Origin: Pycnococcus provasolii
Lineage: Eukaryota > Chlorophyta > Pseudoscourfieldiophyceae > Pseudoscourfieldiales > Pycnococcaceae
Reading direction: 5' to 3'
NCBI GenBank assembly: GCA_938743325.2
Contig: OW568861.1
Coordinates: 682,001-746,000, forward strand
DNA: 64,000 nt
A model generated the notes under the pieces. It worked only from the letters and a program-made list of their open reading frames with translations. It made no database searches and had not been told where the DNA came from. Position 1 is the first letter of the stretch; each line of letters begins with the position of its first letter. A program made the position numbers and the translations under genes. This document shows, piece by piece, positions 9,030 to 63,935 of this stretch.

Positions 9030-10277
9030 TCACTCCGCAGCCGTCTGGTCGTCGTCTTGGAGAACAACGCGCTTTCGCACGACATGCCGGTCACCAAGCG
9101 CCGCCTCGTCGTGCGGTATGCTCTCGGCGAGCGAAACGGCGCGCTCAAAAGCCTCCACCGCGTCGCCGGGGTCATTTCCGACGAAGCTTAGAAATGCAAG
9201 GTCAACGCGCGGTGCGTCTTGCGCGTTGCGAGGCGAGGCACCTGGATGCAGGTGAAGAGGGTGTACTCCCACGGGCCTTGCGAAAGCTGCAGCCATAGCT
9301 CTCGCGCCAGACGGGCCAGCTCCAACGTAGTCCATGTGAAGCGCCTCGAACGTGCTCATCGGAGCATCCGTGCACATGAGCGCGGTTGCAACGTCGTGCG
9401 TTCCGCCGTCTCCTAGTGGGTTGTGCGACAGGTCCAGCGACCGCACCGTGGACGTTCGCAGCGCGGCGGTAACGAGCGCGGCGGCGCCTTCACCTCCGAT
9501 GCTGTTGAACCCCACGAAGAGGTGCTGCAGACTTCTGGCGTTGCCGACGCCTTCTGCAAGCATCTTTGCACCGTCGTCGGTGAGCTTCACGCTCGTCAAG
9601 TCGAGCGTTTTAATTGTTTTTGAGTGTTCGGCGAGGTAGCTGAGGCAGTCCGGCGCGACTCCCACGCCCGTGTCTGCAAAGTTCGCCGTAATGAGGCTTT
9701 TCGCCGACGAGAAGGCATAGCATATGGCGCGCGTGTCTCTCGGTCTCAGTTCGGAGGGTGGCATGGTGAATTCGCGAGCTCCACGCACGAGTGCGAGTAT
9801 GGGTTCCGCTGCCGCGCCGAAGTGCACGTCGTCGAGCATTTTGATGATATCTTGCTCGAGTTCCTCCTTGACGTTGTGTGCGTTCGCTGTTTGTGGCGGG
9901 CTGAACGCCGTCTGGTATAGCTTTTTGCCTTTTGTTGCGCCGAGTGTTTTTGCTCCATGTCTCATGGGTGTGATGGGCGAGTGCAGGAGTGACTCGCTCG
10001 TGCTGTCCGCCCCTTCCGCGGCCATGTCGAGCGCGGCCATTTTGAACGCGGACTTCTGTTGGATGGACGCGGCGCGCGCCTGCCATATGGTGCGTCGGTT
10101 GAATCCATCATCATTGTCATTGTCGGAGTGATTGTCAGACCCCAAAGTAGAGGAAAGGGAAGATGGAAAATTCACCGACTTCACCACAGGCTTCGAAGGA
10201 GAAGTTGTTTCCGCCACAACTCCATCGAAAACGATGACTCCACCACCACGAAAACCGCCCGAAGGAGAGGACGCCAT
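9030..10277 (-). CDS. Leucine-rich-repeat protein (ribonuclease-inhibitor type)
   Basis: A 415-residue protein. After a Ser/Asn-rich N terminus of about 140 residues, repeats of about 28 residues appear from residue 185 to 310: KTLDLTSVKLTDDGAKMLAEGV, LQHLFVGFNSIGGEGAAALV, VRSLDLSHNPLGDGG. The xxLxLxxNxLxxxGaxxLa spacing is that of the RI-like or tropomodulin-like class, which form protein-binding surfaces. The region at 130-180 (EELEQDIIKMLDDVHF) may be an adaptor helix. No signal peptide, kinase or NB-ARC domain is seen, so a cytosolic scaffold is the most that can be said. Its promoter is next to a repeat-rich spacer. Confidence 0.7.
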   Translation of the reverse strand: MASSPSGGFRGGGVIVFDGVVAETTSPSKPVVKSVNFPSSLSSTLGSDNHSDNDNDDGFNRRTIWQARAASIQQKSAFKMAALDMAAEGADSTSESLLHSPITPMRHGAKTLGATKGKKLYQTAFSPPQTANAHNVKEELEQDIIKMLDDVHFGAAAEPILALVRGAREFTMPPSELRPRDTRAICYAFSSAKSLITANFADTGVGVAPDCLSYLAEHSKTIKTLDLTSVKLTDDGAKMLAEGVGNARSLQHLFVGFNSIGGEGAAALVTAALRTSTVRSLDLSHNPLGDGGTHDVATALMCTDAPMSTFEALHMDYVGAGPSGARAMAAAFARPVGVHPLHLHPGASPRNAQDAPRVDLAFLSFVGNDPGDAVEAFERAVSLAESIPHDEAALGDRHVVRKRVVLQDDDQTAAE

Positions 10278-10865
10278 GTATGTTGTTTTTTAAATAAAGC
10301 TATAGGTAGCTAGCCGGCCGGCCCTTAAGGGAAGGGAAGGAAGGGAACGCGGCGCGGCGGCCACGGATGAATGAATGAATGAAACAATGAAAGGGAAAGG
10401 TTCGGAACGGCCGGCCTCTCACCAACTTGCCAACTTGCTGGCCCGGGGCCCAGGCAGAGGCCCGGGGCCCCGCGGGCGGGCCCCGGAGAATTGACCGGCC
10501 TTTGCAACGGCTCCTTTGCATTGCGGGTGTCGGAACTCGGAAGCCAGAAGGGAGGTGGTGCGCACCGGAGGCGCGGAGGCGCGGAGCTCCTTTGCGCACG
10601 CGCACGTATAGCCTGGCCTTCTTGCTTTGGTACGACGTCGAGGACAAACTGAAGCACGGCTTCGCGCCGGCATGCGCGCGTTTCTTCGCGGGGCGTGAGC
10701 GCGGGGACCGTATGTCGAACCTGCACTGGCAATGCACGTGCGAGGCGCGCGTGATCATGCGTAGGCAGTTTAATTGACATAAGCTCTTGCAGTGCTGATA
10801 TACTGTTGCTTATCGTTGGTGTTCCCCAGCGCTTGAAAAAGAAACGAAACACAAGAATTCCGTTC
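10278..10865. other. GC-rich spacer with GGCCGGCC palindromes
   Basis: 10310-10320 and 10408-10415 carry GGCCGGCC-type palindromes. Two overlapping copies of the word GCAAGTTGG (minus strand) lie at 10422-10438, and a run of GGCCCGGGGCCC-like sequence lies at 10440-10495. Minus-strand open frames across the area have Arg/Pro-rich translations typical of high-GC noncoding DNA. Confidence 0.4.
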
Positions 10866-11450
10866 TTATCTTGTCACGTTGGGGGAAATGTATCGCTTCG
10901 CCATCTCCGTGGTGTTTGGGTCTGATAGGTTGTGGTAGTACCACCTATTCTTGTCATGCACGTAGTACAAGTAGAAGTGCACGGTTTTGCAAGCTTGGCA
11001 CACTTTCCTTGAAGTCCCCACCGGCGCCGCCAAAGAACTTATGGCGTCGTTGCCCGCGCCGCGCTTCAGGCGGTGCACCCAATAGACGTACGCCCGCTGA
11101 TGGATGGTTCATGGACCAAGAGTTGCGAAACCGTTATCCTCACCTGAACCATGGATCATGTACTGCTCCGCGCCCACCTCCACCTCGTCGTCGCTGACGT
11201 TCTTGCGGAAGCTGTGGTAGTGCGGCATCCCGGAGTCTTTCGTGCAGTAACCCAGCATGCCCGCCCACGTGTGGAGTCCAGTAGCACTCTTCACCTCCTT
11301 CGTTTTCACGTACATGCGTGTTCCGGGCAGGGTGATAGACTTGGCCTCCAGACACAAGACGGATCCCGGACACAACAAGGGCAACAATATTGAGTTCACG
11401 AACACAGTCGACGGACTTCTTCTCCATGGAGGAAACGGCCCGGGGTTGAT
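10866..11450 (-). mobile_element. Fossil of a HUH-type Rep gene (replitron-like or CRESS-Rep-like)
   Basis: The minus strand encodes a recognisable piece of a rolling-circle replication initiator: a segment with HTWAGMLGYCTKDSGMPHY (about 11220-11275), in which YxxK is the catalytic motif III of HUH endonucleases, followed by an acidic stretch and a downstream segment rich in Tyr and Trp (VHFYLYYVHDKNRWYY). Only the C-terminal part of the endonuclease region and some following sequence are seen; the N-terminal HUH motif is not. It is broken into at least two pieces and looks like an old, inactive copy. Replitrons are known HUH transposons of green algae, which is the best family guess; a virus-derived Rep is the alternative. 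No clear terminal repeats were found. Confidence 0.45.
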
Positions 11451-11656
11451 TGGGCCCCACGTTGGGGATAGTCAGTCTACCTTATGAGATCGGAATTCAT
11501 ATCTCTTTCTCACTTCTCAGCCCCTCCCCTCCCTCCCTCCTCCTCCTCCACCTGCGCCTGCGCCAGCCCATGATCGGATTCCCATCACGCCCCATCACAT
11601 CACTCCCTGCTCACTCCTCCGCTTTTACTTTTTGGTAGCCTCCCGTCATTGTCACA

Positions 11657-12898
11657 ATGTCGTTCTTATCATGGCGTGCTCTTGCAACCGTTTTGCGTGG
11701 TGGTGGGTTAGGGTTAGGGTGTGGTGCTGCCTCTGGTGCTGCATTGGGATCCACGACCCTCGGTGCTAGTGGCCTTGGTGCTGCCTCCACCATCCAAATG
11801 GTGGTGCGCCGCTACGAGGACTATTTGGCGAACGTGCGACCGCCGGCTCCTCCTCCAGCCGACGCAGGTGCCGGATTTCACGCGTACCGACTCGCGGAAT
11901 ACGGATACACGCTACCGCCGGCATTCGCAGCTGTGGGAAGGCCCGCGCCGGACTTCAACGCAGGGGCTGTGATGCCGAACGGCGAAATCGATAAACTCAA
12001 ACTTAGCGACTACAAGGGAAAGTGGGTTCTGCTCTTCTTTTACCCAAAAGACTTTACGTTCGTCTGCCCGACGGAAATCATCGCATTCTCAGAAGCTGCC
12101 GACAAGTTCAGAGAGCACAACGCCGAAATTATTGGGTGCTCCACGGATACCGAGGAGACGCACCTCGCGTGGATACGCACGAGCCGCAAACGTGGTGGAC
12201 TCGGCGAGATGAACATCCCACTTGTCGCTGACGTCACGAAGGACATTGCCGCACAGTACGGAACGCTGTCGAATGAGATTGGGATCGCTTTCCGCGGCAC
12301 GTTCATCATCAACCCTGAGGGCGTCATCGAAAGCACGAGCGTGCTGAACTTTCCCGTCGGCAGATCGGTGGAGGAGCAGCTGCGTCTCATCCAGGCGCTG
12401 CAATTTGTGGCGGAGCATGGCGAAGTTTGCCCAGTGGGATGGAAACCAGGCGACAAAACCATGATTCCAACAACAGACGGCAGTGTGGAGTACTTCGCGA
12501 GCGGCGCGACAGAGCAGCTCGGAACATCTGCCGAGAAGGAGGATGACGACGAAGATTTCGCGTCTTTCATGCCATCCATGTCGTCTCCGTCGGAGCTTGA
12601 GGCGACGATTTCAGGTAATCCTAAGGTGGTGGTTGAGTACATGGCTTCGTGGTGTGGAAAGTGTCGTCAAATTGCCGGTTTCGTCAAAGGACTCAAGGAA
12701 AAGTACGAGCGCGACGTGAAATTCGTCAAGGTGGATACCTCAGACCCAGAGTGGGACGCGTATGCCAAGGAGCGAGGCGTTCATGCGCTCCCGGCATTCC
12801 GCTTCTACGCGGGAGGTAAGGAATCTGGAAGTGAAGTCAGCGGCTACAAGAAGAAGAGTCTCGGCGAGGCTGTTGAACGCTTGGTGCACGAAGAATGA
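11657..12898 (+). CDS. 2-Cys peroxiredoxin fused to a C-terminal thioredoxin domain
   Basis: A 413-residue protein. Residues about 95-275 are a typical 2-Cys peroxiredoxin: peroxidatic Cys137 in FTFVCPTE, the GCSTDTEETHLAW segment, and resolving Cys258 in GEVCPVGWKPG. After an acidic linker (EDDDEDF) residues about 310-413 form a thioredoxin fold with WCGKC (Cys333 and Cys336) and the cis-proline site LPAFRFY. The peroxiredoxin reduces H2O2 and alkyl peroxides; the fused domain could serve as its own reductant. The N-terminal 90 residues are Gly/Ala/Ser rich and acid-poor, consistent with a plastid transit peptide, and the peroxiredoxin is of the plant plastid type. The active site has Lys where thioredoxins normally have Pro. 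Confidence 0.92.
   Translation: MSFLSWRALATVLRGGGLGLGCGAASGAALGSTTLGASGLGAASTIQMVVRRYEDYLANVRPPAPPPADAGAGFHAYRLAEYGYTLPPAFAAVGRPAPDFNAGAVMPNGEIDKLKLSDYKGKWVLLFFYPKDFTFVCPTEIIAFSEAADKFREHNAEIIGCSTDTEETHLAWIRTSRKRGGLGEMNIPLVADVTKDIAAQYGTLSNEIGIAFRGTFIINPEGVIESTSVLNFPVGRSVEEQLRLIQALQFVAEHGEVCPVGWKPGDKTMIPTTDGSVEYFASGATEQLGTSAEKEDDDEDFASFMPSMSSPSELEATISGNPKVVVEYMASWCGKCRQIAGFVKGLKEKYERDVKFVKVDTSDPEWDAYAKERGVHALPAFRFYAGGKESGSEVSGYKKKSLGEAVERLVHEE
11705..11719 (+). repeat. Telomere-like TTAGGG repeat inside the presequence of the Prx-Trx gene
   Basis: Two and a half TTAGGG units in frame, translated as Gly/Leu residues of the predicted transit peptide. Confidence 0.7.
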
Positions 12899-13082: not shown

Positions 13083-16000
13083 TCACCCGCATTCGCTTGA
13101 CGAAACGCTCGGTGGCGTTTCGATGAGCGGCGCGTCAAGCCGATCCGTCTCAAACGCGTGCTTGTACATTGGATTCTTTGTCATGCGGCGATTGCCAGAT
13201 GAATCTACGTGTAACTGGTCCTGCAGCTGCTTGATATTATTGCTCGACAGGTAGTGCACCTGTCGAGCGGGCAGTCCAGCGAACATCTCGCCGCAAAGCA
13301 CCACCTCGCCCTTTAGTACCTGAGCCTGCTCGAGCAGATCGCCGCCAGCCTCGAGGATTGCGCCAGGCATCACCACGCTTCCAGATCGCATCGTCGCCGA
13401 TGCACCGATGCTAATGGGCCGTAGCTTAATGACCATGCTTTCAACCGTGTGAGCACTGATATCGCAGTCGTCACCGACGCTCGCGTAATCGTCAATCCTT
13501 AGCAAGTCAAACTCCGTCGTGCCAAACTCACCAAGCCAAACACCACGACCAACATTCGCGCCCATCGCACGAGCAAACCACACGAGGAAGGGAGTTCCGG
13601 CGGCGGCAGCGATGAAACCGTCTATCGAGTTCATAAGAGCAATCATGAAGCTCCATTTGAAGTGGTACGATGAGTAGAAGGGGTGGTCACCTGTTTTGTA
13701 CCGGCCAATCACGATGTATTTCAGCAGTACGACGAGCAGAAGCTCGATAATCAAAACGAGGAGATTCACCAGTGGAAGGAGGAGGAAGAAGTACACCCCG
13801 AAGACGAAGAGATTATCCGTTTTCACGTCAATATACCGGTCGATGATGTAGTAGTTGAAGAAAAGTGATCCAACTTCCGCTGCCTCCGACATTGGCGTGA
13901 CAAAGATTGCGACGAAAGCGCACCACACGTTGAAGCTAAGCCAAAGCCAAGGGTTCTTGTGATTCAGATGCGCCCGCCGCTCCAAGCCGCTCAGATTCTG
14001 CAAAATGTTTCCTCCGTTCTGCGCATGTGGTTTGGTGCGCAGTCGTACGCAGTGACCCCCTTCATTTCCGGTGTTGATCGTGAAATCGTCAATGACTGAA
14101 CGCTTCTTTGCGAGTGTTGATGTTCCTAGCACTGACCCGCGCTTGCACAGCACGCCCTCGAGCACCACCGAGTGATCCAAAACGTTGGCATGTTCTTCCA
14201 CCACAATCGGCAATCGCACGCCGTCACTACGCGAGCTCGGTAGCAGCGTAGTCGCGCTGCCGAATGTGACGTCCGCATCAACGCTGATGAGCTCGTAGAG
14301 TCCATTGCAGTGAAAATAGTCAATCTGCACGCCTGGAACGATGCGGGCACCGAGAAGTCGATACTTCAAGGACAGAACCTCTGTCGAGATCCATGGCTCT
14401 AGAGCGTCGTTGAAATATTCGCTATTCACGATGCCGTTCCACAGCCAGAAGCGGAAGTGATCCCACCATGAACGCACGAGAATATCCTCCCCATCTTGGT
14501 GCTTGATAGAGTGCACCTTAACATTGCTTTTGTATGTCGTGCCGTCGCTATTGCAATCAGACGTGAAGTCACCGATGATTAGCTTCTTCACGACGACTGC
14601 GGCAACGAAGTAGCATTCGTGCATGACATGACCCAGGAGTGGTATGCATGACATGAGCACAAGATATGGGAGCGCTTCGTCAACCTCTCTTAGGTTCGTT
14701 TTCTGAAGTGCGTCGTTGAGGACGATGAGGATCTCCACGAGTGGCATGTATTGGATAGAAGAGAGCAAGAGCAGAAATGGTATTCCAACGCATATCCTCA
14801 ACCAGGCCTGTACGCTGTCACCGCTGCCGCCGGCAAGTCCCTCGAAGTCGTCGAGGCGATGCGAATTGTCCTTGATATCGTGATTCTTTCCGAGCGGCGA
14901 GGTGCTAGAAAGCGCGCCAACCGCGCTCCCATCTCGTACCGTTGATCCAGGCGTGACAATCGCACGCGTTCCAACGTGGCACCGCCTCCCAATCCGAACG
15001 CGCTTCACGTGATACTCCCCTTGACTCACGTGCGACGTGAAGACGTTGCTTCCGTAAGCAAGAGTGGCATCGCTGCCAATATCCACCAGCCATGGATTCG
15101 AGATGGTTACGTCGTGCTCAATTGTCACGCCCTTGCCAATGCGAGCGCCAAAGAGCCGATAGTACATAGGCAGAATCGGCGTGCCAGCCGCATAGTGAGC
15201 TACCGTCGCCTCGGTTTGGTGAAACAGTGAGCCGGAGAACCAGTGCCAAAAATATTGGCGACCCCAAAGCGGATACTTCGCCTCTAGTACTGATGCGTTG
15301 CGCGGCCTTGAGAACGTGTACATCAGAAATGCGACAAAGACCTCCAGCAGTACACCAAACAGCTCAAGAAGTGGAAGGCTCGCATAGAGCCACCATTTCC
15401 CGTGCGTGGAATAAATGTGCCAACCGATAACATAGCCTGGCAAACTCGAAAATTCATCTACGCTCATTTCGACAATGAAAGCGAATAGCTGTGCAAACAT
15501 GCAAGTGTAGCTGCACTCTCTACCGCCGGTAGCTTCGCCTTTCATCGAGTTTGGCAACGTATAAGCAGTACCATTTTCTGAATCTTCGATCGCGTCGCTC
15601 TCCTCATATATGCCAAAGATCGGATTGACGTTCCGTGTGCTGCTCCCCAATCCCTTTCGCGTGTGACGAATCATCGCCTCGTGCATAGCTCGCCCAAGTG
15701 AGCCGTTGTGGTCACCAATGGATGCGGCGCGGAGGCGTGGGTTCGGCTCGCGTTCTTCCGTCGAGTCATTGTCATTGCTATTTGCAAGTTCAGCCAGTCT
15801 GGTAGCTAGTGCCTTAGCCATTGCTGTCGGGGTGCTATTCTGGTAAATCGTCGTTCCCGGAATATTCACCTGCGGGTACAGCTGACGAAGGCGATTGGTC
15901 ACCTTTCCCGCAAGTAGGGAATTTCCTCCCAGCGCCTCGAAATCGTCATCCTCCAATGGCAAGTCGCCAAGCTGAAGCACGTCCTGGAAAATCTTTGCTA

Positions 16001-18902
16001 CGTTTTGTACAATTTCATCTAGCGGGAAATCCCCGTCACTGCTGCTTGCCGTAATGTCATCTCCAACAGCGCCAGCCGCAGCCTTCTGGCGGCGACGACC
16101 TTTCTCTGCCAGGTATTCTGAGGGTGAGATGAATTGCTTGCGATCAATTTTCCCATTCACGTTGAACGGCATCTTCGCAAGTGGAACGAACATCGATGGT
16201 ACCATGTATGGAGGTAGCTTCTTCTCCACACCTGCTTTGACCGCCTTGGCGAAAGTATCTGCCATCGGGCCAAACATGTCTTCGTCCACACCATCGGCAT
16301 TTGCAGCGTCCGCCTGGTCGAGGTAAGATGATATGTACGCAACAAGTCGCTTGCTCGAGCTGTCCGGTCCACTGCCGTCGACGATCACAGCTGCATGCTG
16401 AACCGCATCAAGTGCGACGAGCGCGCTCTCCACATCGCCAATTTCGATGCGAAATCCTCGAATCTTCACCTGATGATCTCTCCTTCCAAGACAACGCAGA
16501 TATCCGTCGGCGTTCCACTGCCCGAGGTCGCCGCTGCGATATAGCATGCCAGAACCATACGGGTTGGGCTGGAATGCTTCCGCCGTTTTCGCGTCATTAT
16601 TAACATAGCCAAGCGCCAGTCCCGTTCCAGCAAAGCAGATTTCTCCCACTGCGCCAATTGGAACAAAGCGATTGTGCTTGTCGAGTACGTATACCGCATG
16701 ACCACATGGTTTCCCGACGAGCATGGTGTGCAGGTTGCCTTGAGATGGCACGGCGTAGTGTGTGATGTCCCCCTCGGTCGGGCCGTACACGTTGTGGATA
16801 ATGCCCCGTGGCGCAACGCGGCTCCGATAAACGGCGGCGCATACGGCGGGTGAGAGAGCTTCGCCACAGAGAAGCAAGTGGCGCATGAAAGGGAGATGTG
16901 ACTTTGTCCCTTGCGCGTCCCCTTGGCTGCGATCGATCCGATGAAGGGGTGTATTCTCCGCGAAGTCCACAATCATGTTCAGCTGACTTGGCACGAACCA
17001 GCATGCGCCGCACTTGTAGTGATACAGCAAGCTGAATACAGTGGACGTGTCCTTGTGCACCTCTGGCTTAGGCACCACCAGCGTGGCACCGCAGGCGAAA
17101 GGCCAGAAGAGCTCCCACTCGCTCACGCCAAATACGTACGGAGTTTTCTGCAGGATCGTGTCGCCTGGCTCTGCGCCAAGATCGAAGGCTTGGCACAGCC
17201 ACTTGACACGACGCACGAGACCTCTATGCGGCACCATGCACCCCTTCGGCCTTCCTGTTGTGCCGGATGTAAACAGCACGTACACCATCGAGCGATCAAT
17301 CTCGTGTGGCGCGTATGGAATGTCCTTCCGCCGCGAAGTTCCTGGAGATCTCGCATTCCCCAGCACAGCCTGCATGGAACTCGAGCGTCGCTGTTGCGAG
17401 GTGGGACTGCCGGCGATATCTTCAGAACGAGGCAATGCCGATGGCGTGCTGCCATCGAAAGGAAGAAGCGTCATGTCACCTTCAATTCCCCATGAGTCGC
17501 GCTGGTCAATGTAAAGCACGTCGCCGGGGAAGGTGTTACCTGGCCCGAGAATGTTGGCAAAGTCAGACTGTGTGATGAGAAGGTGCGCGCCACCGACATA
17601 CGCCGAATCCTCGAGCATTGCCTGGATGCGCTCTGCGGGATAGCTCGGGTCAATTGGAATGTATGCGCCGCCGGCGCGAAGCACCGCGTGCACAGCCAGC
17701 AGTAGGTCGTATCCTCTGTCAAGTATCAGTGGCACGCCCATGTCGACGGTGATTCCCACCACACAGAGTTGCGCGGCCACGTAAGCAACCTCCTCGAGGA
17801 ACGAGGCGTACGAGACGTGCCTTGCTCCGACAGTGTGTATGGTCGCATCATACTCCCGTCCTTCCGCCCCGGGCGTGTATGGATCGAGCGACATCGCCGC
17901 CCTCGCGAGACATCCGCTCGCCGCGGCGTTCTGCGCAATCAGCCCGTGCATGGTGATGCCCTCCTCGTTTGCAATACCGGGCGTGCCTCTCACAATGAGG
18001 CGCTGCGCCTGTTCGTCGGTGATAAGAGGCAGCGCCTCGGGCGACGTTGCCCCGGCGACTGCACAGTACCCTACCCACGCTCGCCGCAGTGCAGCGGCGT
18101 ACAGCATCGCCGTCTCCTGTCTCCACACATCGAGCCGATACGCAAGCTGTCCCTCAAAGCCTGCGCCCGAGGCTGCCTTCCACACGTCCAGCCGAACGTC
18201 GAGGTGTCCGCCCGCAAGCGCCCTGGGCACATACTGGCGTGCCGCCGCTTCGCTCTCGCCGCCTTCGTCGTCCGTGTCGTCGCCTCTTAAGCCTCGCGAT
18301 GGCGCCTCTGCGTGCAGTGCGAAGGCTGCTTGAAACAGTGGGTGACGGAACGGGTCAGGTTCCATTCCAGCTTTCGTGGCAACATCGGCCCACGTCCACG
18401 ACGACGACGACGATGTCGACGACGTGCTGGGAGCGCAAGCACCATCCTCGTGCGCCGCTCTGGCGACGTCAGCAAGTGCAACCCCAGTCCGTTCCCAGGC
18501 GACGACATCCGCGACGAAGACGGACGTCGCGACGTCGTCGTCGTCCGGAGTGAGCACACCGACGACCACCTTATCCTGTGCACACCACCTCGCGAGGGTG
18601 GTGCCGAACACGGCGAGGAGCGCTTCTGGCGACGCTGCGTTGCCCAAAAGCGTCGCGACTGGAACTGTAGCGACGTTGATTGCGTCCGACAACGGCCTTC
18701 TCGTCCCTTCTTCTGTCGGTGCGAGCTTGCATTCGAGCGTGTTTGCGTCCGAGCACGCGTTTGCCCAAGCTTGCACGTTTTCTGAGCTTGAGTTTGATTG
18801 TTGTGGCCGCACGACGCACCGCCTTAACACGTCAGAAGCTGAAACGTGGTGGTTCCCATCATCGTTAGAGTTGGCGTCATGTGAGGAGTCGGGTAACACC
18901 AT
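13083..18902 (-). CDS. NRPS-like synthetase of Pls/PosA architecture (C-remnant, A, PCP, membrane and beta-helix modules)
   Basis: A 1939-residue intronless protein. Order, numbered from the ATG at 18902: a condensation-domain-like C-terminal half (about 95-290, ending in the usual linker LPLITDEQAQRL); an adenylation domain (about 320-925) with core motif A3 FTSGTTGRPKG at 544, A5 NVYGPTEGD, A7 YRSGDLGQW, A8 GRRDHQVKIRGFRIEIGD and A10 NVNGKIDRKQ; a carrier domain with LGGNSLLAG, Ser995 being the phosphopantetheine site; then about 850 residues with six to eight membrane helices and three left-handed beta-helix (hexapeptide) modules (GARIGKGVTIEHD; GARIVPGVQID; GANVGRGVWLGE). The A-T-membrane-three-tandem-domain layout is that of bacterial poly-lysine synthetase and relatives (NRPS terminal domain family). 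It should activate a carboxylic substrate and condense it at a membrane. At the position of the amino-group-binding Asp235 of GrsA there is Gly592. Upstream in-frame codons lack an ATG, so this start is preferred. Confidence 0.88.
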   Translation of the reverse strand: MVLPDSSHDANSNDDGNHHVSASDVLRRCVVRPQQSNSSSENVQAWANACSDANTLECKLAPTEEGTRRPLSDAINVATVPVATLLGNAASPEALLAVFGTTLARWCAQDKVVVGVLTPDDDDVATSVFVADVVAWERTGVALADVARAAHEDGACAPSTSSTSSSSSWTWADVATKAGMEPDPFRHPLFQAAFALHAEAPSRGLRGDDTDDEGGESEAAARQYVPRALAGGHLDVRLDVWKAASGAGFEGQLAYRLDVWRQETAMLYAAALRRAWVGYCAVAGATSPEALPLITDEQAQRLIVRGTPGIANEEGITMHGLIAQNAAASGCLARAAMSLDPYTPGAEGREYDATIHTVGARHVSYASFLEEVAYVAAQLCVVGITVDMGVPLILDRGYDLLLAVHAVLRAGGAYIPIDPSYPAERIQAMLEDSAYVGGAHLLITQSDFANILGPGNTFPGDVLYIDQRDSWGIEGDMTLLPFDGSTPSALPRSEDIAGSPTSQQRRSSSMQAVLGNARSPGTSRRKDIPYAPHEIDRSMVYVLFTSGTTGRPKGCMVPHRGLVRRVKWLCQAFDLGAEPGDTILQKTPYVFGVSEWELFWPFACGATLVVPKPEVHKDTSTVFSLLYHYKCGACWFVPSQLNMIVDFAENTPLHRIDRSQGDAQGTKSHLPFMRHLLLCGEALSPAVCAAVYRSRVAPRGIIHNVYGPTEGDITHYAVPSQGNLHTMLVGKPCGHAVYVLDKHNRFVPIGAVGEICFAGTGLALGYVNNDAKTAEAFQPNPYGSGMLYRSGDLGQWNADGYLRCLGRRDHQVKIRGFRIEIGDVESALVALDAVQHAAVIVDGSGPDSSSKRLVAYISSYLDQADAANADGVDEDMFGPMADTFAKAVKAGVEKKLPPYMVPSMFVPLAKMPFNVNGKIDRKQFISPSEYLAEKGRRRQKAAAGAVGDDITASSSDGDFPLDEIVQNVAKIFQDVLQLGDLPLEDDDFEALGGNSLLAGKVTNRLRQLYPQVNIPGTTIYQNSTPTAMAKALATRLAELANSNDNDSTEEREPNPRLRAASIGDHNGSLGRAMHEAMIRHTRKGLGSSTRNVNPIFGIYEESDAIEDSENGTAYTLPNSMKGEATGGRECSYTCMFAQLFAFIVEMSVDEFSSLPGYVIGWHIYSTHGKWWLYASLPLLELFGVLLEVFVAFLMYTFSRPRNASVLEAKYPLWGRQYFWHWFSGSLFHQTEATVAHYAAGTPILPMYYRLFGARIGKGVTIEHDVTISNPWLVDIGSDATLAYGSNVFTSHVSQGEYHVKRVRIGRRCHVGTRAIVTPGSTVRDGSAVGALSSTSPLGKNHDIKDNSHRLDDFEGLAGGSGDSVQAWLRICVGIPFLLLLSSIQYMPLVEILIVLNDALQKTNLREVDEALPYLVLMSCIPLLGHVMHECYFVAAVVVKKLIIGDFTSDCNSDGTTYKSNVKVHSIKHQDGEDILVRSWWDHFRFWLWNGIVNSEYFNDALEPWISTEVLSLKYRLLGARIVPGVQIDYFHCNGLYELISVDADVTFGSATTLLPSSRSDGVRLPIVVEEHANVLDHSVVLEGVLCKRGSVLGTSTLAKKRSVIDDFTINTGNEGGHCVRLRTKPHAQNGGNILQNLSGLERRAHLNHKNPWLWLSFNVWCAFVAIFVTPMSEAAEVGSLFFNYYIIDRYIDVKTDNLFVFGVYFFLLLPLVNLLVLIIELLLVVLLKYIVIGRYKTGDHPFYSSYHFKWSFMIALMNSIDGFIAAAAGTPFLVWFARAMGANVGRGVWLGEFGTTEFDLLRIDDYASVGDDCDISAHTVESMVIKLRPISIGASATMRSGSVVMPGAILEAGGDLLEQAQVLKGEVVLCGEMFAGLPARQVHYLSSNNIKQLQDQLHVDSSGNRRMTKNPMYKHAFETDRLDAPLIETPPSVSSSECG

Positions 18903-19477
18903 CGTATATGTATGCACACGGTGGCCGAAGATTGCGTGAGCCTGCCTCTCGGAAGGTTGCGAAGTTGAGACAAGCTGATGAATCTGAGTGCCTAGATTTC
19001 GGCCTGTCCAAGAAAACAAAACGCGCAAGTTTCCTGTACCCTACGTCGTTCGGTTCCGGTCCGTTGAATCCTCGACCTGTGATGATGGGATGATGGGATG
19101 ATGATGGCCACCTAAAACTTTACCAAACTCTCCCTCCCAATGTTGGTATGAGCCTTGCATCATCCACATCCCAAGAAACAGCATCAACGCAACGCAACGC
19201 AAGACAAGAAACAGCGTGGTCAATTGGGTTGCAGCCTGTTACCAACCCCGAATCAAATCCATGTACCCGGTAGTAGGAGTACGGTAACTTTAGTATGTAA
19301 GGCCGGCCGCAAAGTTGGGCAGTTGGCAAAGGCAAGTCTTGCGGCCGAGGCCTCTTGCGGCCCCTCTTGCGGCCGGTTCTCCGGGTGATTAGGGGTTCGC
19401 CCTTACCACCTTTTTGGGGTACATTTCTTTTTGCCACCTAGGATACATCACAACATCTCCTTGACTTGACTTGCCGC
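18903..19477. promoter_or_regulatory. Divergent promoter region between the NRPS-like and beta-helix genes
   Basis: Contains AACCCCGAAT at 19246-19255, a GGCCGGCC palindrome at 19301-19308, and four TTGCGGCC words at 19338-19376. A short TGATGGGA repeat lies at 19080-19110. Confidence 0.4.
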
Positions 19478-22212
19478 ATGATGAGCGCACCATGTTCCTG
19501 CTCATGGCGTTCCTGCTTTCCATGTCTTTCTCTTTCTCTTTCGATGTGCCTCCTTGCCTTGTCTCCCCTTCTTGCCTCATCTTCGGCGGCTTCAAGGTCA
19601 ACCATCTCAGGAGATTTTGGAGGTTTGGGGAGGGGGAAGAGTTTTGGGAGGGATCATGGGCTTGCACCTTCCGCTTGGGATGCGTTCGTCAACTCAGGCA
19701 CGCCCGATGGCGTCCCGCCGTCGTTCGACTGCGAGGCGCGGAAACTCGTGTACGAATATGGACGAAAACGACTCCCGCAAGTTGACCGAAACAGCAAATT
19801 CGTCACCTTATTTGACGCCATGCAACTGCAGGCGTGCGGCGAAACAAGGCCGCAGGTGCGTGACTTGCCAGACAGTGTCGAGTGGACGCCGCCGATGCAA
19901 CAAACCGAGCAAAGCCAAGAAACGACCTCGCCGATCTTTGTTGACGCCGACAACGGCAACGACCACGCAAGCGGTGACGTTGTGCGAACGCTGCAGGAGG
20001 CTGTGCGTCGCACGCTCGCCAAGCCAAAGGATGCGCGAATGGTCGTGATGCATGGTGGCGTGCACCGTGTGAATGAAACGATAAAGCTGGGACCGGAGCA
20101 CAGCGGACTACGCGTCGTCAACGCACCCGGCGAAACAGCGATCATTTCCGGCGCCGTGCCGCTGACACTTGCGTGGGAACCGCTGCAGGGCGAAAACAAC
20201 GTGTTCTATGCAACCGGCGTGCGTTCTCAGCTTCCCTCCGGCGTCGCGCTCGAGGCGCTGCGAGTGAGCGAGAAAGCAAACGAACGCATTCCACTACTTA
20301 CGAAACGTGCGACACGCGCACGCTACCCCAACGGTGACCCGGAGACGATGATGCGCGTCAACTCGCTGGACGGCTTCGTAACGGTGAGCACGACGTGGTC
20401 GCCACCCAAGGATGCGCCAGACGCCGAAACGGTCGTGGTTGAGCCGTCCGACTGGCCTAGCGTCGAGTGGCCAACAAGCCAAGGTGCGCGTCAGCCGTGG
20501 ACTGGGATGGGTGCCGCGGGACAATTTCACATTGGCGTGGGCGGAACGTGCGTGGATGTGACGCCTCCCGCGGGCTACTGGTGCGCCTCCGACGCACCGC
20601 GCAACATCACACGACACTCCGCTCCGAGTGGTGTGCACGTCACGAGCGAAAATCTGCTCAACTTTCCCTACAAGAATGCCACGGGTGCAGTCGTCTTTGC
20701 GTGGCGACCTTATCACTGGTACACGAACATGTGGCGCGTTGGAGGTACGCGCTCGTCGAACCAGGACGACGAGTCCACCGAGCTGTGGTTCTCGCATGGC
20801 GGGTACCAGGGTGGAGAGGGCGAAACGACGGGAGCGGAGTGGTTTATCGAGAACGTGCGCGAGGAGCTTGATGCGCCGAACGAGTGGTTCTACGACGAGA
20901 CAAGTGACACGCTTTTCTACGTCGTGAATGGAACGGCAACCATGGATAGCCTCGTATTTGAGGCGGTGGTGGTCAAGTCATTCGTGGACGTTCGCGGCAC
21001 CAGCAGCAATCCGGTGACGGATGTGTCGGTGTCTGGCATCGTGTTCCGCGACACGGCGCCCACCTACCTCGATGTACACGGCCTGCCAAGCGGTGGGGAC
21101 TGGGCGCTGCACAAGGGTGGTGCCATCACTGCCGTGGGCGTGCGAGGTCTTCGCATCGAAAGCAGCCTCTTCGCGCGCATTGACGGCAATGCCATCTACC
21201 TGGGTGGCTACGCCCGCGACGTTGTTGTCGATGGCAACGAGTTTGTTTGGATCGGAGGCACGGCCATCGCAAGCTGGGGTGACACGTCCACCGCACTCGA
21301 CGAAAGTGGACGGCGAAAGCCTCTCGCGGATCCCATTGGCCCGGATGGGCGTTCAGGCGAGCAGCCACGCGGAACGGTGATCGCGAACAATCTGGCTCAT
21401 GAGGTTGGCATCTATCAGAAGCAGTCCTCCTTCTACTTTCAAGCGATCAGTGCGCTCACGCAAATTTCCGGAAATGTCGTCTTCAACGGCCCTCGTGCGC
21501 ATATCAACTTCAATGACGGCTTTGGCGGAGGCGACGTCATTGCGGACAATCTTCTTGCGAACTCGTGCCGCGAGAGCGGCGACCACGGCCCATTTAATTC
21601 GTGGGATCGCGTTCCGTACATTCACAACCTCCGCGGCAAGAGCAGCGTGATTCCGGTTTTTCGCAACGTGCACAATAATCTCGTGCTTGCCACCTACCAG
21701 TCTCAGGAGGCGTTCGACACGGACGACGGTAGCTCGTACTACTATTTCCATGATAATGTGGAGCTGTTCGCGGACACGGGCTTCAAGAGTGACTTTGGTG
21801 GACGTAAGTCTACCTCTATCCATCTATACCAAATTAAAGAGCAATCACTAAACACCCTAACACACTAAATAAAACAGGAGAGAACAAGCAGTGGGGCAAC
21901 ATCTACGCGTACGTGAACGCGTGCTGGCACCTGTGCTGTGGCACGGACTGGATCTACGCGAACGCGTTTCGATCGAACGTTTGCGTGTTCAAGAATCCGG
22001 ACGGGTACGCAAGCACGTGCGACAGCAAAATCGCGCCAAACACGTGGGATGTGGGTAACAACCGTCTTTTCACGAAGAGTGGCGATCTGAATGTGTGCAA
22101 CATGACGCTGCAGCAGTGGGTTGCGGGCGGCCACGACGTCGGCACGACGGTGAGCGCGTGGCCGACGGATGCGGATCTGATTGCGTGGAGCCGCGAGTTG
22201 TTGGGCATGTGA
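19478..22212 (+). CDS. Secreted right-handed beta-helix protein, probable glycoside hydrolase (two exons)
   Basis: Exon 1 is 19478-21803 and exon 2 is 21878-22212. The 74-nt intron starts GTAAGT, ends AACAG and carries CTAAC/CTAAA branch-like sequence; splicing restores the frame (Arg at the joint) and adds a Cys-rich end (ACWHLCCGTDWIY). The product is 886 residues. A hydrophobic segment at about 15-40 (LSLSLSMCLLALSPLLASSSA) looks like a signal peptide. From about 155, IFVDADNGND and the VVNAPGETAIISGAVPLTLAWEP block match the start of the GH141-like/DUF1565 type of parallel beta-helix proteins. Later coils end in NGNAIYLGG, DGNEFVWIGGTAI and GPRAHINFNDGFGGG. A role on extracellular or cell-wall polysaccharide is likely; the substrate cannot be told. 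Two adjacent Met codons (19478 and 19481) are possible starts. Confidence 0.8.
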
Positions 22213-32350: not shown

Positions 32351-34321
32351 ATGCTCGGCACACGCGCAACGTCAACGTCAGCGTCAGCGTCGGCCATGTC
32401 ACGTGTCAATAGCGTGTCAGCGTCACCCCGTGGGATGAGCAGGCCTAACCGTCGTATCTCAGCATCATCTTCCTCTTCATCTTCCGTAACCACGTTACCC
32501 GCCTCACCAAACACCAAGCAGCAGCAAATACCGTCATCTGCCGAGGTTGTGATCGTTGGCGCGGGATTTGGAGGACTCGCGGCTGCCGCCGTGCTCGCGC
32601 ACGAAGGAATACAGGTCGAGGTGTTCGAAGCGCACGATACCGTAGGCGGAGCGGCACATAGCTTCCAGAGGCGGACGCCGGACGGAAACTCGTACACGTT
32701 TGACAGTGGCCCAAGCTACTTCATGGGCTTGAGCGAAAGCGGGGACGCGCGCTCGACAAACGCGCTCGCGCAGCTGCTGCGACTCCTCGACGAACCTGTG
32801 CCACAGTACACGTACCTGTCATGTGACTACCACCTTCCCGAAGGTGTGCTGAGAGCGCGCGCAGGAGGAGGGGGTGTTCCGTACGACAACGCAGTGCGTG
32901 AAATGGGCGGAGAAAGTGCCTATCAGCAACTAAAAGCGCTGCGACGTGCGATGGAGCCGCTCGCACGCGTCGCGGAAGTGACGCCATTTGCGGCGCTCCG
33001 ATCAGACGCTGCTGCTGCACTTACCATTGGACGATCTGTCCCGCGCATGTCGGCAGCCATCGCTCGTGCGCTAGCCGCCGACCCGTCGCAGGCTGCTGCG
33101 CTGCCAGAGCTGGCAGAAGGCTTCGATGCGACCATGCGACGTGCGGGCGTCACGGATCCGTTCCTCACACGGCTGATGAATCTCGAATGCTTCGTGATTA
33201 GCGGATGCCTGGCAGATCAGACCGCTGCCGCTGCTATGGCATACTTGTTCGCGGAGCGAAGCCGCGAAGATGCCGTTTACGACTACCCACAGGGTGGCGC
33301 GATGGCACTCTGCGAAGCTCTGAAAAATGCCGCCGAGCGTCGGGGAGCAAAGATCCACCTGAAATCTCCCGTGGCTCGAATCAAGCACGTGGACGGCGTG
33401 GCATCGGGCGTCGAGCTTACCGACGGCCGGGAAGTAGAGGCGAAGCGCGCGGTGATAACGGGTGTGAGCGCGTGGGATACGCTAAAGCTTCTTGGCGGAC
33501 AATTAGATAACAGCAGCAGCGGCGACAGCAATTTGTCGACGGAAGTAGACGCTCTCGCCGCGGCTGCCGGTGCGGTACCACCTCTCGACTCTTTTCTGCA
33601 CCTACACGCCGTCATTCCTGCCGACGCCCTTCCGCCTGCAAATCACGAGCTCGCGGAGGCATGCCTCGATTCGCCTCATCGTGCATTCGACGCACCCGGT
33701 GCCGGGCCAAATGGCACCGATGCGCTCAACATACACTACCTGCACGTCCGAGATTGGTCGGACGGCGTTGTTGATTCGCCGCTGAACGTGGTCAACGTTT
33801 CCATACCAACAGCGCTCGATCCATCGGCAAGCACGGATCGCAACATGCACGTGCTTCACGCGTACGGCGCGGCAAACGAAAGCTTCAGCCTCTACGAGTC
33901 GGAGCTTCCGGCTGACGGCAGCGCAAAATATGCGTCGTCGTCGTCATACCAAGAGCTCAAAGCGCAACGCAAGGCATACCTCTACGACAGTCTGCGCGCC
34001 ATCTTTGGCCCAGATATCGAGCAGCGTGTTGCGCACGAATGGGTGGGCACGCCACTGACGCAGCGCCGATTCGTAAATCGATTTCGCGGAGCATACGCTG
34101 CAGGACGCGACGTCACCCGCGTCAACATGTTCGATGCGAGCAAGGCGCCCGGTGCAGATACGAGCCTGCAGAACTTGTTTGCGTGCGGCGACTGCGTGAG
34201 TCCCGGCGTAGGTGTACCTGCCGCCGTTGCCTCTGGCATTGCCGCCGCGAACCGCGTTAGTGGCGTGGGCAAGCACCTCTCGCTTCTGAACGAGTTGAGT
34301 GAAATGGGTTACTCTGTGTAA
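32351..34321 (+). CDS. CRTISO-like FAD-dependent oxidoreductase (carotenoid isomerase/desaturase superfamily)
   Basis: A 656-residue protein. A Ser/Thr/Arg-rich transit-like N terminus of about 60 residues precedes the dinucleotide-binding motif VVIVGAGFGGLAAAAVLAHEG and FEAHDTVGGAAHSF. Later blocks are TFDSGPSYFMG, DYPQGGAMALCEAL, the C-terminal FAD contact NLFACGDCVSPGVGVPAAVASG, and AANRV. This order belongs to plastid CRTISO and CRTISO-like proteins. Whether it isomerises lycopene or acts on another polyene is not decidable here; the sequence looks more like the plant CRTISO-like oxidoreductases of unknown substrate. The GTG-TAA end overlaps a TGTAA word, which probably also directs polyadenylation. 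Confidence 0.82.
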   Translation: MLGTRATSTSASASAMSRVNSVSASPRGMSRPNRRISASSSSSSSVTTLPASPNTKQQQIPSSAEVVIVGAGFGGLAAAAVLAHEGIQVEVFEAHDTVGGAAHSFQRRTPDGNSYTFDSGPSYFMGLSESGDARSTNALAQLLRLLDEPVPQYTYLSCDYHLPEGVLRARAGGGGVPYDNAVREMGGESAYQQLKALRRAMEPLARVAEVTPFAALRSDAAAALTIGRSVPRMSAAIARALAADPSQAAALPELAEGFDATMRRAGVTDPFLTRLMNLECFVISGCLADQTAAAAMAYLFAERSREDAVYDYPQGGAMALCEALKNAAERRGAKIHLKSPVARIKHVDGVASGVELTDGREVEAKRAVITGVSAWDTLKLLGGQLDNSSSGDSNLSTEVDALAAAAGAVPPLDSFLHLHAVIPADALPPANHELAEACLDSPHRAFDAPGAGPNGTDALNIHYLHVRDWSDGVVDSPLNVVNVSIPTALDPSASTDRNMHVLHAYGAANESFSLYESELPADGSAKYASSSSYQELKAQRKAYLYDSLRAIFGPDIEQRVAHEWVGTPLTQRRFVNRFRGAYAAGRDVTRVNMFDASKAPGADTSLQNLFACGDCVSPGVGVPAAVASGIAAANRVSGVGKHLSLLNELSEMGYSV

Positions 34322-60136: not shown

Positions 60137-63100
60137 TCAAGAACGTCCCATGCGACCGTCGTAGTTCGAAGAAAGAGGAAAGCCAGCCGCAGCAAGCGCG
60201 CGTATTGCCCTGCCCTCAAGATCGCGAGCTCGGCTTCTGCCCTCGGGCACACGGATGTATGCAAATTCAACCGGGCCTGACCGGCTTTTGCGATGCTGGG
60301 CAACACGTTGTGGGAAGTTATCCGTCTCGCCAACGTAGAAGAGAGCTGTGGATTGAGAGGGGTCAGTCTCGCGCAAGACGTAGAGGACGGAGTCGCCATC
60401 AAAATGTGCCGTGCTTGGCATCTGCTGAGGAGTTAGGAAGGCGAATACATCAGCCTCGTCGCTGGGCACAATGGCGTTGTCGTTCAGCACGCGAGTGGAT
60501 GCTGACAGGGTTAGCGACCCCATGTCGCGGTAATTCAACTCGAGTGACTCTTTGACGGCGGCGCCATCACGCAAAGTCGCCAGCGTTGCACGACTGTCCA
60601 TGGGTGCTGGCATTGGAGTGGAAGAGCCGAGCTCCGCCGCGCGCGACAGAACATCGATGGGCACTCCAGCGTCGCGTGCCACCTGCAGCGCGAGAGACTG
60701 CGTGCTCGGGCCATCGCGCAGGCGCCACGTCGGGCGAAGTTGCCCACCACCGCCCGTTGGGGCCACTTCCATATGCAAAAGCCTGGGGAAGGGGTCCATG
60801 TCGAGACTTAGTACACCGTGCAGGTGCGTGGCTGCGATGAGCGCGCCACCGTTGTTCGCGTACGTCTCCAACAGCGCGCCGACAAGCGAACACGCAGCGG
60901 TGTACTCCGTGGTGGAGAATGGTTCGTCGAGTAGAACCAAGGTGTCCTTTTGCTCCTCGCGGAGCAGCGAGGTGAGATCGTCCATCTCAACCGCGAATGC
61001 GCTTCGGCCTTCGCTGGGAGCATCCTTGCGAGGTAGGCGAAGAACGACGCTCTTGAGATTTGGCGAAACGGCGCAACGCTGAGCGGGAGCCATCAGGCCG
61101 CAGCTAGCAAGAAGCGCCGCCGAGGCGATGCTACGGGAAAGTGTGGACTTACCCGCCATGTTTGGTCCCGTGACGATCACGCCCTCACCCCGTCGTATTT
61201 CAACATCATTCGACACTGCCGAGGAATCGCGCGACATCCAGTGCGGAATCATACCCTCCACCTCAAGGAGCTTATCGCTGCTCGGCGTGGAGACGTGAGG
61301 AATGCACCAACCGCGTGATTTCGCTGCTGCGACATGCATCGCGAGACTCTGATAGACGACACAGAGCACGCATGCTGCCGCCACTTCCGAGCTCGCGGTA
61401 TTTGCGAGCTCTTTGCCGAGGTGGCGCAGCTCAAGGCGTATGGACTCGGTAGCCTGTCGCACCGCATCACGATACTGCCTTGCAGCCTCCTCAACTTCGT
61501 CCGTGGACCATCGGTCATTCACAAATTTTCCCAAGCGATCGCGTGGATGCTCGAGATTCTCCACTTTGTCGCCGAGCTGTTTCCTGGCCATGTCGCGAAT
61601 GTCACCAACCTTGGGAACCTTAACCTTGAGCCAAATTGCATTGTTGTAGATGTCGTGGACAAGACATGCTCGGATTGCCGCTACGCTTAGATTGGTTGTG
61701 CCAGCGGATGTGAGCGCCGCGGCGGCGACGGGTATCAGTCGCGATCGAATTCTCTCCTCATAGGCGCGTCGTGTCTCGTCCACGGCGTCGAACTCCTGAG
61801 CAAGCCGGTTGCGCTTCACCTTACCCTGTAGCCTCGCCTCATTAATTTCCCTGAATGCTCGAGGGAGGCCCGGAAACAGCTCGCAAGTTGCCACCCCTTC
61901 ATCGTCGCCCTCTTCGTCGCCGCCACCGAAGCTTCCGGATTCATCGTCGAGGTCAATGTCAACGACCTCATTGATCTTCCTTCGCGCCTCCTCCCAGGCA
62001 GCAACCAACCTTTCGTGCAGTCGATCAAAGTCTCTTTCTGCCTCAGCAGCAAGTGAACCTCCCTCGACCGCGAGCGCGGCACGTAGCAGGTCTCTGCCTG
62101 CGCCCATCCGCGCAACATCCACGGCGACCTCGCAAGCGCCGGCAATGTCTCGCAGCATCGACGGCGGCGCCTCGCCCTCGCGAAGAAGACGGACGACACG
62201 ACTTGATGCGAGCAGTGGTCCATAGTTTGGGAGTGCTTCTTCACCTTGCAGTAGTGCAGTGCAAGACGCTCTCAAGGCTTGTGCTGCAGACTGGGATGGC
62301 GGTCTAAGCAATATGCTGCTCATCCAGCCGAGGCACAGGGCTGGTGGCGCGACAGGAGAATTTTCCTTGCGCAACATGCTGCGTGCAAGACATGGGGACA
62401 CGCCAGCTCCACCCGAGCCGTCAGTGGTTTGGTCTCCAGGAACCCACAAATTACGCAGGAGGCCGAGAGCTTCTGCCGTGGAGACATGCAGCGGCTTTGG
62501 ACGTTTCGTGGTATCAACAGTTTCGGCGTATGGTATGATCTCCCACTCCTGTGCGGCGTCTGCCGTTGTCATGATCCGAGCACCGTCATCCTTGCCACCA
62601 ACTCCGCCGAGTGCGTGTTCCTTTTCAAGCTCGACTTTCAAAATCTTAGCCATTTGTTCAGCCTGCACTTCTGCGCCGCCAAACCATTCCCATGGGGTGG
62701 TATTATTGCGACTTTTTTTGATCATGCGCATTAGTGGACTGCTGTGATAATACCGCCTTGTGTCGTCCATGAACGAGCGATGTACGTAGAGCGGCGGCAC
62801 ATGTCCCAGTGTCTCGATAAGACTTGTCGCCGCCGTCTCCGTGAGTCGATCCGAGATGTTAATGCGGCGACATTCCACATCAGCCGATAAATAAACGTAC
62901 CCAGAGTGTGTTCTCCCGACAGCAACGAGCGGAGGCGCTTTCATGTCTAGCATTCCACTGTCAACGGCGTACTGATCCTCGTCCACAAGTCCGTGCGAGC
63001 GCAGTGGCTTCGCAGGCGTGACCACGTCCACGATAGCTCGCTCCTTACGGCTGCCTTTGTTTGAGTTCGGGAGCTCTTCGCATATCACCGCCTTGAATCC

Positions 63101-63769: not shown

Positions 63770-63935
63770 CCGATACACAGGGAGTATGTATATACACGCA
63801 CGCACAGCCCTGGATCGCGCGAGCACCTATGGAGGGTAGGTTGGAAAATGACAAGCCACGAAAAGTGTAAACGCGTCCCCTGCCAGCGAGACAAAAACAA
63901 AGCGGAAAAAAGCGGCGAGGAGGAGGGGCACGTGT

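Follow-up and report, generated by a model that had tools for sequence, protein, structure and literature searches.

The green picoalga Pycnococcus provasolii carries a gene for a single 1939-residue fusion protein that may join small hydroxy acids into a polyester at a predicted membrane, a reading of the sequence that we prefer and rate at somewhat short of an even chance. The gene lies within a 64,000-nucleotide stretch of genomic DNA, referred to here as the window. An earlier note on this DNA had described an adenylation (A) domain, a carrier (thiolation, T) domain and a terminal domain in which membrane helices alternate with three beta-helices, all in one frame and in the order known from the Pls/PosA enzymes, and had suggested a homopolymer or short peptide as the product. 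Profile matches and a structural model bore out this architecture, including the Pls/PosA-like domain order and the homology of the terminal domain; the homopolymer did not prove to be the best reading, and membership of the Pls group was not supported.

A single-frame fusion gene in a green picoalga

The gene was read from the DNA as a single open frame on the minus strand (window positions 13083..18902), and a database protein search returned a protein, P0002, with the same length and start. The host, already thought to be an alga, is indeed P. provasolii (PMC11130579), an NCBI protein of this species sharing 99% identity with a neighbouring protein of the window (32351-34321); the published account of strain CCAP190/2 gives a genome of 32.2 Mb in 44 chromosomal pseudomolecules (PMC11130579), and the assembly analysed here has 46 contigs and 32.33 Mb. 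The GC3 of the fusion gene is 0.63, the same as that of the neighbouring genes. When the genome was searched with the TIGR02353 profile, the two strong stretches found were both inside the fusion gene, with six weak, short stretches outside it.

Clear Pfam matches were obtained for five of the seven neighbouring frames scanned (an M16 peptidase, a peroxiredoxin-thioredoxin fusion, an FBPase, a Dus enzyme and a MutS protein); of the other two, one had a match slightly under the cut-off and one had no match. The peroxiredoxin and thioredoxin domains are joined in a single frame (11657-12898). In the MutS protein (60137-63826) Pfam detects MutS domains only, and its C-terminal end is presumably GIY-YIG-like, as in MSH1. 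Adjoining the fusion gene, an 800-residue divergent frame (19466-21868) had no Pfam match at E 1e-5. An upstream exon is possible, but the DNA gave no sign of a multi-exon gene with an N-lobe there: the earliest possible start is a TTG at 19028, and the divergent frame begins at 19466.

Elsewhere in the genome, PF01648 (phosphopantetheinyl transferase) has two matches above cut-off, at C1:755811-756062 and C2:894091-894300, one of which shares a contig with the fusion gene, about 55 kb from it. Contigs C5, C22 and C30 contain open frames of 13,856, 23,586 and 17,190 residues in which AMP-binding or condensation domains are matched, and which are likely giant megasynthases. The sole match reported for the RuBisCO large subunit (C8:308973-309701) is partial, with 76 bits, above cut-off, and is perhaps a RuBisCO-like protein.

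Domain architecture of the fusion protein

The A domain occupies residues 352-927 (16122..17849; minus strand, as for all features given here), as judged by Pfam and profile matches and by structure comparison, and is followed by a carrier domain (residues 968-1032; 15807..16001) identified by Pfam and a motif scan, with its phosphopantetheine site at Ser995. The core motifs of both domains are intact. The Pls/PosA-like terminal domain covers residues 1136-1898 (13209..15497), as indicated by its TIGR02353 match, by alignment and by the model. The order of A domain, T domain and terminal domain is that of Pls/PosA.

Within this region the model places three left-handed beta-helices, alternating with three groups of helices that are predicted to lie in a membrane. 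Hydropathy covers helix group 1 (residues 1132-1198; 15309..15509) at residues 1171-1200 only, and helix groups 2 (residues 1361-1443; 14574..14822) and 3 (residues 1651-1732; 13707..13952) are seen by both model and hydropathy, at a hydropathy threshold that also flags three stretches in the soluble A domain. Beta-helix 1 (residues ~1251-1349; 14856..15152) has a sub-threshold Hexapep match in addition to the model, and beta-helix 2 (residues ~1519-1625; 14028..14348) comes from the model. The third beta-helix (residues ~1780-1885; 13248..13565) is predicted to have an O-acetyltransferase-like fold and, in a fold search with the model, superposes best on maltose and galactoside O-acetyltransferases.

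A clade of relatives in green algae and dinoflagellates

Searches with the whole protein (7,980 candidates scored, best 120 of 2,051 listed) and with the terminal domain of the relative P0012 (7,988 scored) revealed a separate clade of at least 35 proteins, including the window protein and P0002. Among the matches listed for the second search, 32 clade members reach down to E 2.6e-88, with the next protein at 1.2e-43. Named members come from Cymbomonas (P0004), Symbiodinium (P0114), Ostreopsis (P0129) and Effrenium (P0142), together with a Rhodospirillales MAG (P0007) and a Verrucomicrobiota MAG (P0127). The basis for bacterial members is the two MAG contigs (4,812 and 4,010 bases) and P0126, which sits on a 148-kb contig and pairs with P0007 in the terminal-domain tree (99). 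After P0002, the nearest relative in both the A-domain and the terminal-domain trees is from Cymbomonas, another green alga.

A scan of bacterial genome contigs from 84,980 species with two peptide patterns, a method that can miss members, yielded 36 loci, none of them in the clade. By A motif, 32 of the 36 are of the FD..E A4 type, two, both from Novosphingobium, are of the acyl-CoA-ligase type, and two without the A5 motif (L027 and L032) fall on the Pls side of the terminal-domain tree. None of 385 genomes from the class of the Rhodospirillales MAG (G001) matched at E <= 1e-40, a weak negative from a set without any genome known to match. Among viral contigs, 129 pattern matches included no relative; among plasmids, 67 records matched, all below 60% identity, with the ten listed at 24.9-29.5%. 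No algal version was apparent from the title or the start of the abstract among the literature matches listed, which include two papers on dinoflagellate genomes (PMC7557087, PMC11453091), and passages of PMC10522769 mention alveolate, amoebozoan and metazoan homologues without giving the species there.

Six clade members (P0020, P0039, P0074, P0122, P0123 and P0124) also have a carboxylesterase domain. By eye, the place of the nucleophile is Gly or Ala in all six, P0122 having a further GxSxG downstream, and these domains look inactive. The carboxylesterase fusion had been considered as a hint of ester chemistry and was dropped as such, since a domain with Gly or Ala in the place of the nucleophile gives that chemistry no support.

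An N-terminal half condensation domain

In front of the A domain the fusion probably retains the C-lobe half of a condensation domain (residues ~83-303; 17994..18656), placed by a profile of relatives, motif scans and a model that is of low confidence here. The window protein matched a profile built from the half-condensation regions of eight relatives with 28.8 bits, against 0.9 bits for the reversed control, and had no match to PF00668 up to E 1. In all five relatives scanned (P0010, P0012, P0037, P0065 and P0122) it is only the later part of PF00668 that is matched, from profile position 187 onwards, or, in P0065, from 318 and under the cut-off. The motif scan found no HHxxxDG in the window protein, so that this signature of NRPS condensation domains is missing, and found it in only two of 35 clade proteins, in each case a long way downstream of the His of the terminal domain. 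A model covering residues 1-1060 has a pLDDT of 66, residues 1-340 being mostly poor, and its best structure matches include the condensation-adenylation structures of EntF and Txo1/Txo2. It is because of the relatives' profile, the partial PF00668 matches in relatives, these structure matches and the missing HHxxxDG that we consider a condensation half without its catalytic motif to have probably been kept.

A serine-type adenylation domain with an altered pocket

The substrate pocket was compared in one alignment of 302 A domains, 27 from the clade and 275 others. In the window protein the motif FGVSEWE (residues 591-597; 17112..17132), found by motif scan and alignment, has Gly592 at position 235, followed by Val593, and Trp596 at position 239. 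Position 235 is Gly in 22 and Ala in five of the 27 clade domains, and Asp in 274 of the 275 others; position 239 is Trp in 26 clade domains and Phe in one. A motif scan found FG[IL]SEWE in five further clade proteins, and three more end before the motif site. The A domains of Pls-side proteins have Asp at 235 and Glu at 239 in 23 of 24 cases, a pair replaced by Gly592 and Trp596 here. These positions correspond to Asp217 and Glu221 of PosA, code positions 1 and 3, which are described as 'well conserved' and 'conserved in all CHPAs', respectively; Ala mutants of either had undetectable activity with L-Orn (PMC10522769).

The full code, GVWFLCVITK, otherwise resembles the serine code of the same alignment, DVWFxSLVDK. 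Among alpha-hydroxy-acid A domains, Gly at position 235 is reported for EnSynA1 and Ala for an engineered TycA (PMC11253843), and A domains for keto acids typically have another residue in place of Asp235 and otherwise match the code of the parent amino acid, with one exception described (PMC10949194). As the pocket lacks the residues that hold amino acids in known relatives, we favour a hydroxy acid, with the reservation that loss of Asp235 alone is no proof of one: McyG has Val at this position and yet accepts Phe (PMC11253843). A keto acid is less likely, since a structure with a keto acid has Met in place of a Pro conserved in amino-acid domains (PMC11253843), and, if that Pro maps to YGPTE as we place it, it is retained here. 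Malate was also set aside, the aligned pocket being without a basic residue.

The phylogeny of the A domain, proposed in the earlier note as a check, placed the clade (SH-aLRT 99) within a set (97) of 52 rows, serine-type domains and their kin, that is distant from the A domains of Pls; the forks linking it to particular serine rows had SH-aLRT values of 83-86. This tree, with SH-aLRT support only, sampled 25 of 27 clade, 12 of 25 serine, 14 of 23 other DVW/DLW, 12 of 13 Pls and 25 of 214 other domains. The serine-type NRPS proteins around the clade are bacterial where named, and a bacterial origin of the fusion gene, as once suggested, is possible from its sequence, though not established as recent; against it can be set Cymbomonas as the closest relative after P0002 and the presence of dinoflagellates in the clade.

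Kinship and conserved core of the terminal domain

The C-terminal half, for which a profile check had likewise been proposed, matched TIGR02353 with 183 bits, below the curated cut-off of 423 bits; a canonical member (P0155) scored 544 bits and five other clade members 231-270 bits. In an unrooted terminal-domain tree the clade formed a single group (98), apart both from Pls and from the fungal rows with two Novosphingobium rows (100). This tree had 17 Pls-side and seven fungal rows, omitted P0002 and P0135 from the clade, dropped L048 for length, and was rooted at its midpoint for drawing only. Since three unrooted groups cannot show which two are sisters, we rooted the tree by the domain's own three repeats. 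In a quick version (31 proteins, 93 modules) clade repeats 1, 2 and 3 all paired with the fungal group (90, 100 and 95). In a careful version (the same minus P0164, 90 modules) repeats 2 (100/100) and 3 (100/97) did so, and repeat 1 grouped with Pls repeat 2 (98/88). The deep branches are unstable in both and differ between them. Apart from that repeat 1, no tree united the clade with Pls to the exclusion of the other types. On balance the repeat-rooted trees bring the terminal domain of the clade closer to the fungal kind; against this, its mean identity is nearly equal, 22.4% to fungal and 21.3% to Pls representatives.

Four residues, R1515, R1778, E1797 and H1818, are invariant in 44 of 44 representatives (14 clade, 21 Pls and nine fungal or Novosphingobium), which makes it likely that the terminal domain is active. 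His1818 (13449..13451), which a second alignment shows in every one of 34 clade rows and 22 others, is the candidate catalytic residue. Glu1821, Lys1826 and Lys1864 are common to the clade and Pls and are not found in the fungal group.

The longest four fungal rows have 1672-1700 residues, and two rows of the group are named, from Elsinoe batatas and Vermiconidia calcicola, which we take to be close to Aureobasidium. Polymalate synthetase is described as the product of a 5049-bp gene, a transmembrane enzyme with adenylation, thiolation and condensation-like parts that makes a polyester (PMC9210645, PMC11905612). From length and layout, rather than from comparison with a characterised sequence, we infer that the fungal group is polymalate synthetase-like, a link weakened because a review puts six transmembrane segments in the N-terminal part (PMC9210645) and the TIGR02353 match of P0145 and P0148 is C-terminal. 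The two Novosphingobium loci (L017 and L019, ~10001-12100) combine an acyl-CoA-ligase-like front (YGMTECMPI, read in L017) with a terminal domain of this fungal polymalate-like group, and are possibly bacterial polymalate synthetases.

Comparison with known systems

With the Pls/PosA cationic homopoly-amino-acid synthetases the window protein has in common the A domain, the carrier, the terminal domain with its three beta-helices between helices predicted to be in the membrane, and the four invariant residues. Unlike them, it lacks Asp235 and Glu239, has an A domain of serine-NRPS lineage, adds a half condensation domain in front and misses the TIGR02353 cut-off. The fungal polymalate (PMA) synthetase-like group has the nearest terminal domain in the repeat-rooted trees (three of three and two of three repeats) and, if it is what it seems, would have hydroxy-acid chemistry in common; its A domain is acyl-CoA-ligase-like, with YGMTECMPI, whereas that of the window protein is of the NRPS kind, with YGPTE. 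Serine-type NRPS C-A-T modules such as EntF share the A-domain lineage and a condensation half joined to A and T, but the window protein is without the HHxxxDG half and Asp235 and has gained a membrane terminal domain. The profile of Lys2 (L-aminoadipate-semialdehyde dehydrogenase, TIGR03443) spans the half-condensation region through the A domain of P0012 (residues 54-798), but the window protein ends in a Pls-like terminal domain, without a reductase domain (Pfam to E 1). The Epichloe epsilon-poly-lysine synthetase (PMC7179176), set beside our protein by its description only, is eukaryotic too, but fungal and a maker of poly-lysine.

A model for the enzyme and its alternatives

In our preferred reading, a serine-type NRPS module without amine recognition and without a catalytic condensation part would feed a membrane polymerase, with a small-hydroxy-acid polyester as the simplest product. 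Judging from GVWFLCVITK, the substrate that the A domain turns into an acyl-AMP would be a hydroxy acid, small and uncharged (e.g. glycerate or lactate). The carrier, once primed by a phosphopantetheinyl transferase for which the genome holds the two candidate matches, would receive the acyl unit at Ser995, and the half condensation domain would be a scaffold only, because its catalytic motif is missing. At the membrane, the triple beta-helix would then transfer the acyl group to the next unit's hydroxyl, the likely base being His1818, and the product may be exported across the membrane. The domains, the lost pocket residues and the kinship of the clade are seen in the data; the substrate, the ester chemistry, the polymer and its chain length, the membrane and its side and the export of the product are all parts of what we infer.

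The pocket argument would hold equally if the enzyme moved single acyl units of a hydroxy acid, or of a similar small acid, to a membrane lipid or glycan without making a polymer, a possible but rather unlikely course that finds a parallel in the O-acetyltransferases matched by beta-helix 3. A fold match alone, however, shows no function, and the characterised enzymes with such a terminal domain are polymerases, making poly-lysine and poly-ornithine (PMC10522769) or, if the fungal link holds, polymalate (PMC9210645); the four invariant residues are common to all three groups. The same domain order and homologous terminal domain could suggest that the protein is an ordinary Pls/PosA enzyme whose product is a cationic homopolymer of amino acids, but both substrate-binding residues are gone in every aligned clade domain and the A domain lies outside the Pls lineage, and we regard this as highly improbable. 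Membership of the Pls/PosA group is not supported, because the TIGR02353 cut-off is missed, the equivalents of Asp217 and Glu221 have become Gly and Trp, and the terminal domain lies outside Pls in the trees, repeat 1 of the careful version excepted; an amino-acid homopolymer is therefore unlikely.

Two further alternatives concern the substrate. Algae contain osmolytes such as glycine betaine and dimethylsulfoniopropionate, and a small substrate whose amine is blocked or absent (one of these, or an N-methylated amino acid) might form an amide or ester at the membrane. Gly at position 235 opens the pocket, as in EntE D235G (PMC11253843), glycine betaine is the substrate of a known NRPS-like enzyme (PMC11050029), and in the alignment Trp lines the pocket with Phe, Tyr or His. 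Trp239 and Phe278 are no sign of a cation box, however, because the aligned serine-type codes have them as well, and we think such a substrate improbable. It is also unlikely, if a shade less so, that serine or another alpha-amino acid is still taken through a rearranged pocket: the serine-like code and ancestry would fit, and amino acids can be accepted without Asp235, as the case of McyG shows (PMC11253843), but all 27 aligned clade domains have at position 235 one of the two residues, Gly and Ala, that are known from hydroxy-acid domains.

Implications for the family

The same kind of membrane polymerase end piece stands behind three separate lineages of activating domain. In Pls/PosA these are diamino-acid A domains, and in Novosphingobium and the fungal group acyl-CoA-ligase-like ones; the third is the serine-type NRPS module described here, with a pocket suited to substrates other than amino acids. 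Extending the polyester reading from this protein to its relatives is more tentative still. Green algae, dinoflagellates and possibly a few bacteria may have a family of membrane polyester synthetases in which a serine module, having lost the Asp that binds the amine and the half of the condensation domain that carries catalysis, is joined to a polymalate-type polymerase and makes, and perhaps exports, an uncharged poly-hydroxy acid. We know of no case of poly-hydroxy acids such as poly-glycerate or poly-lactate in phytoplankton. If the reading is true, green algae and dinoflagellates would make a polyester by means of an NRPS-like enzyme.
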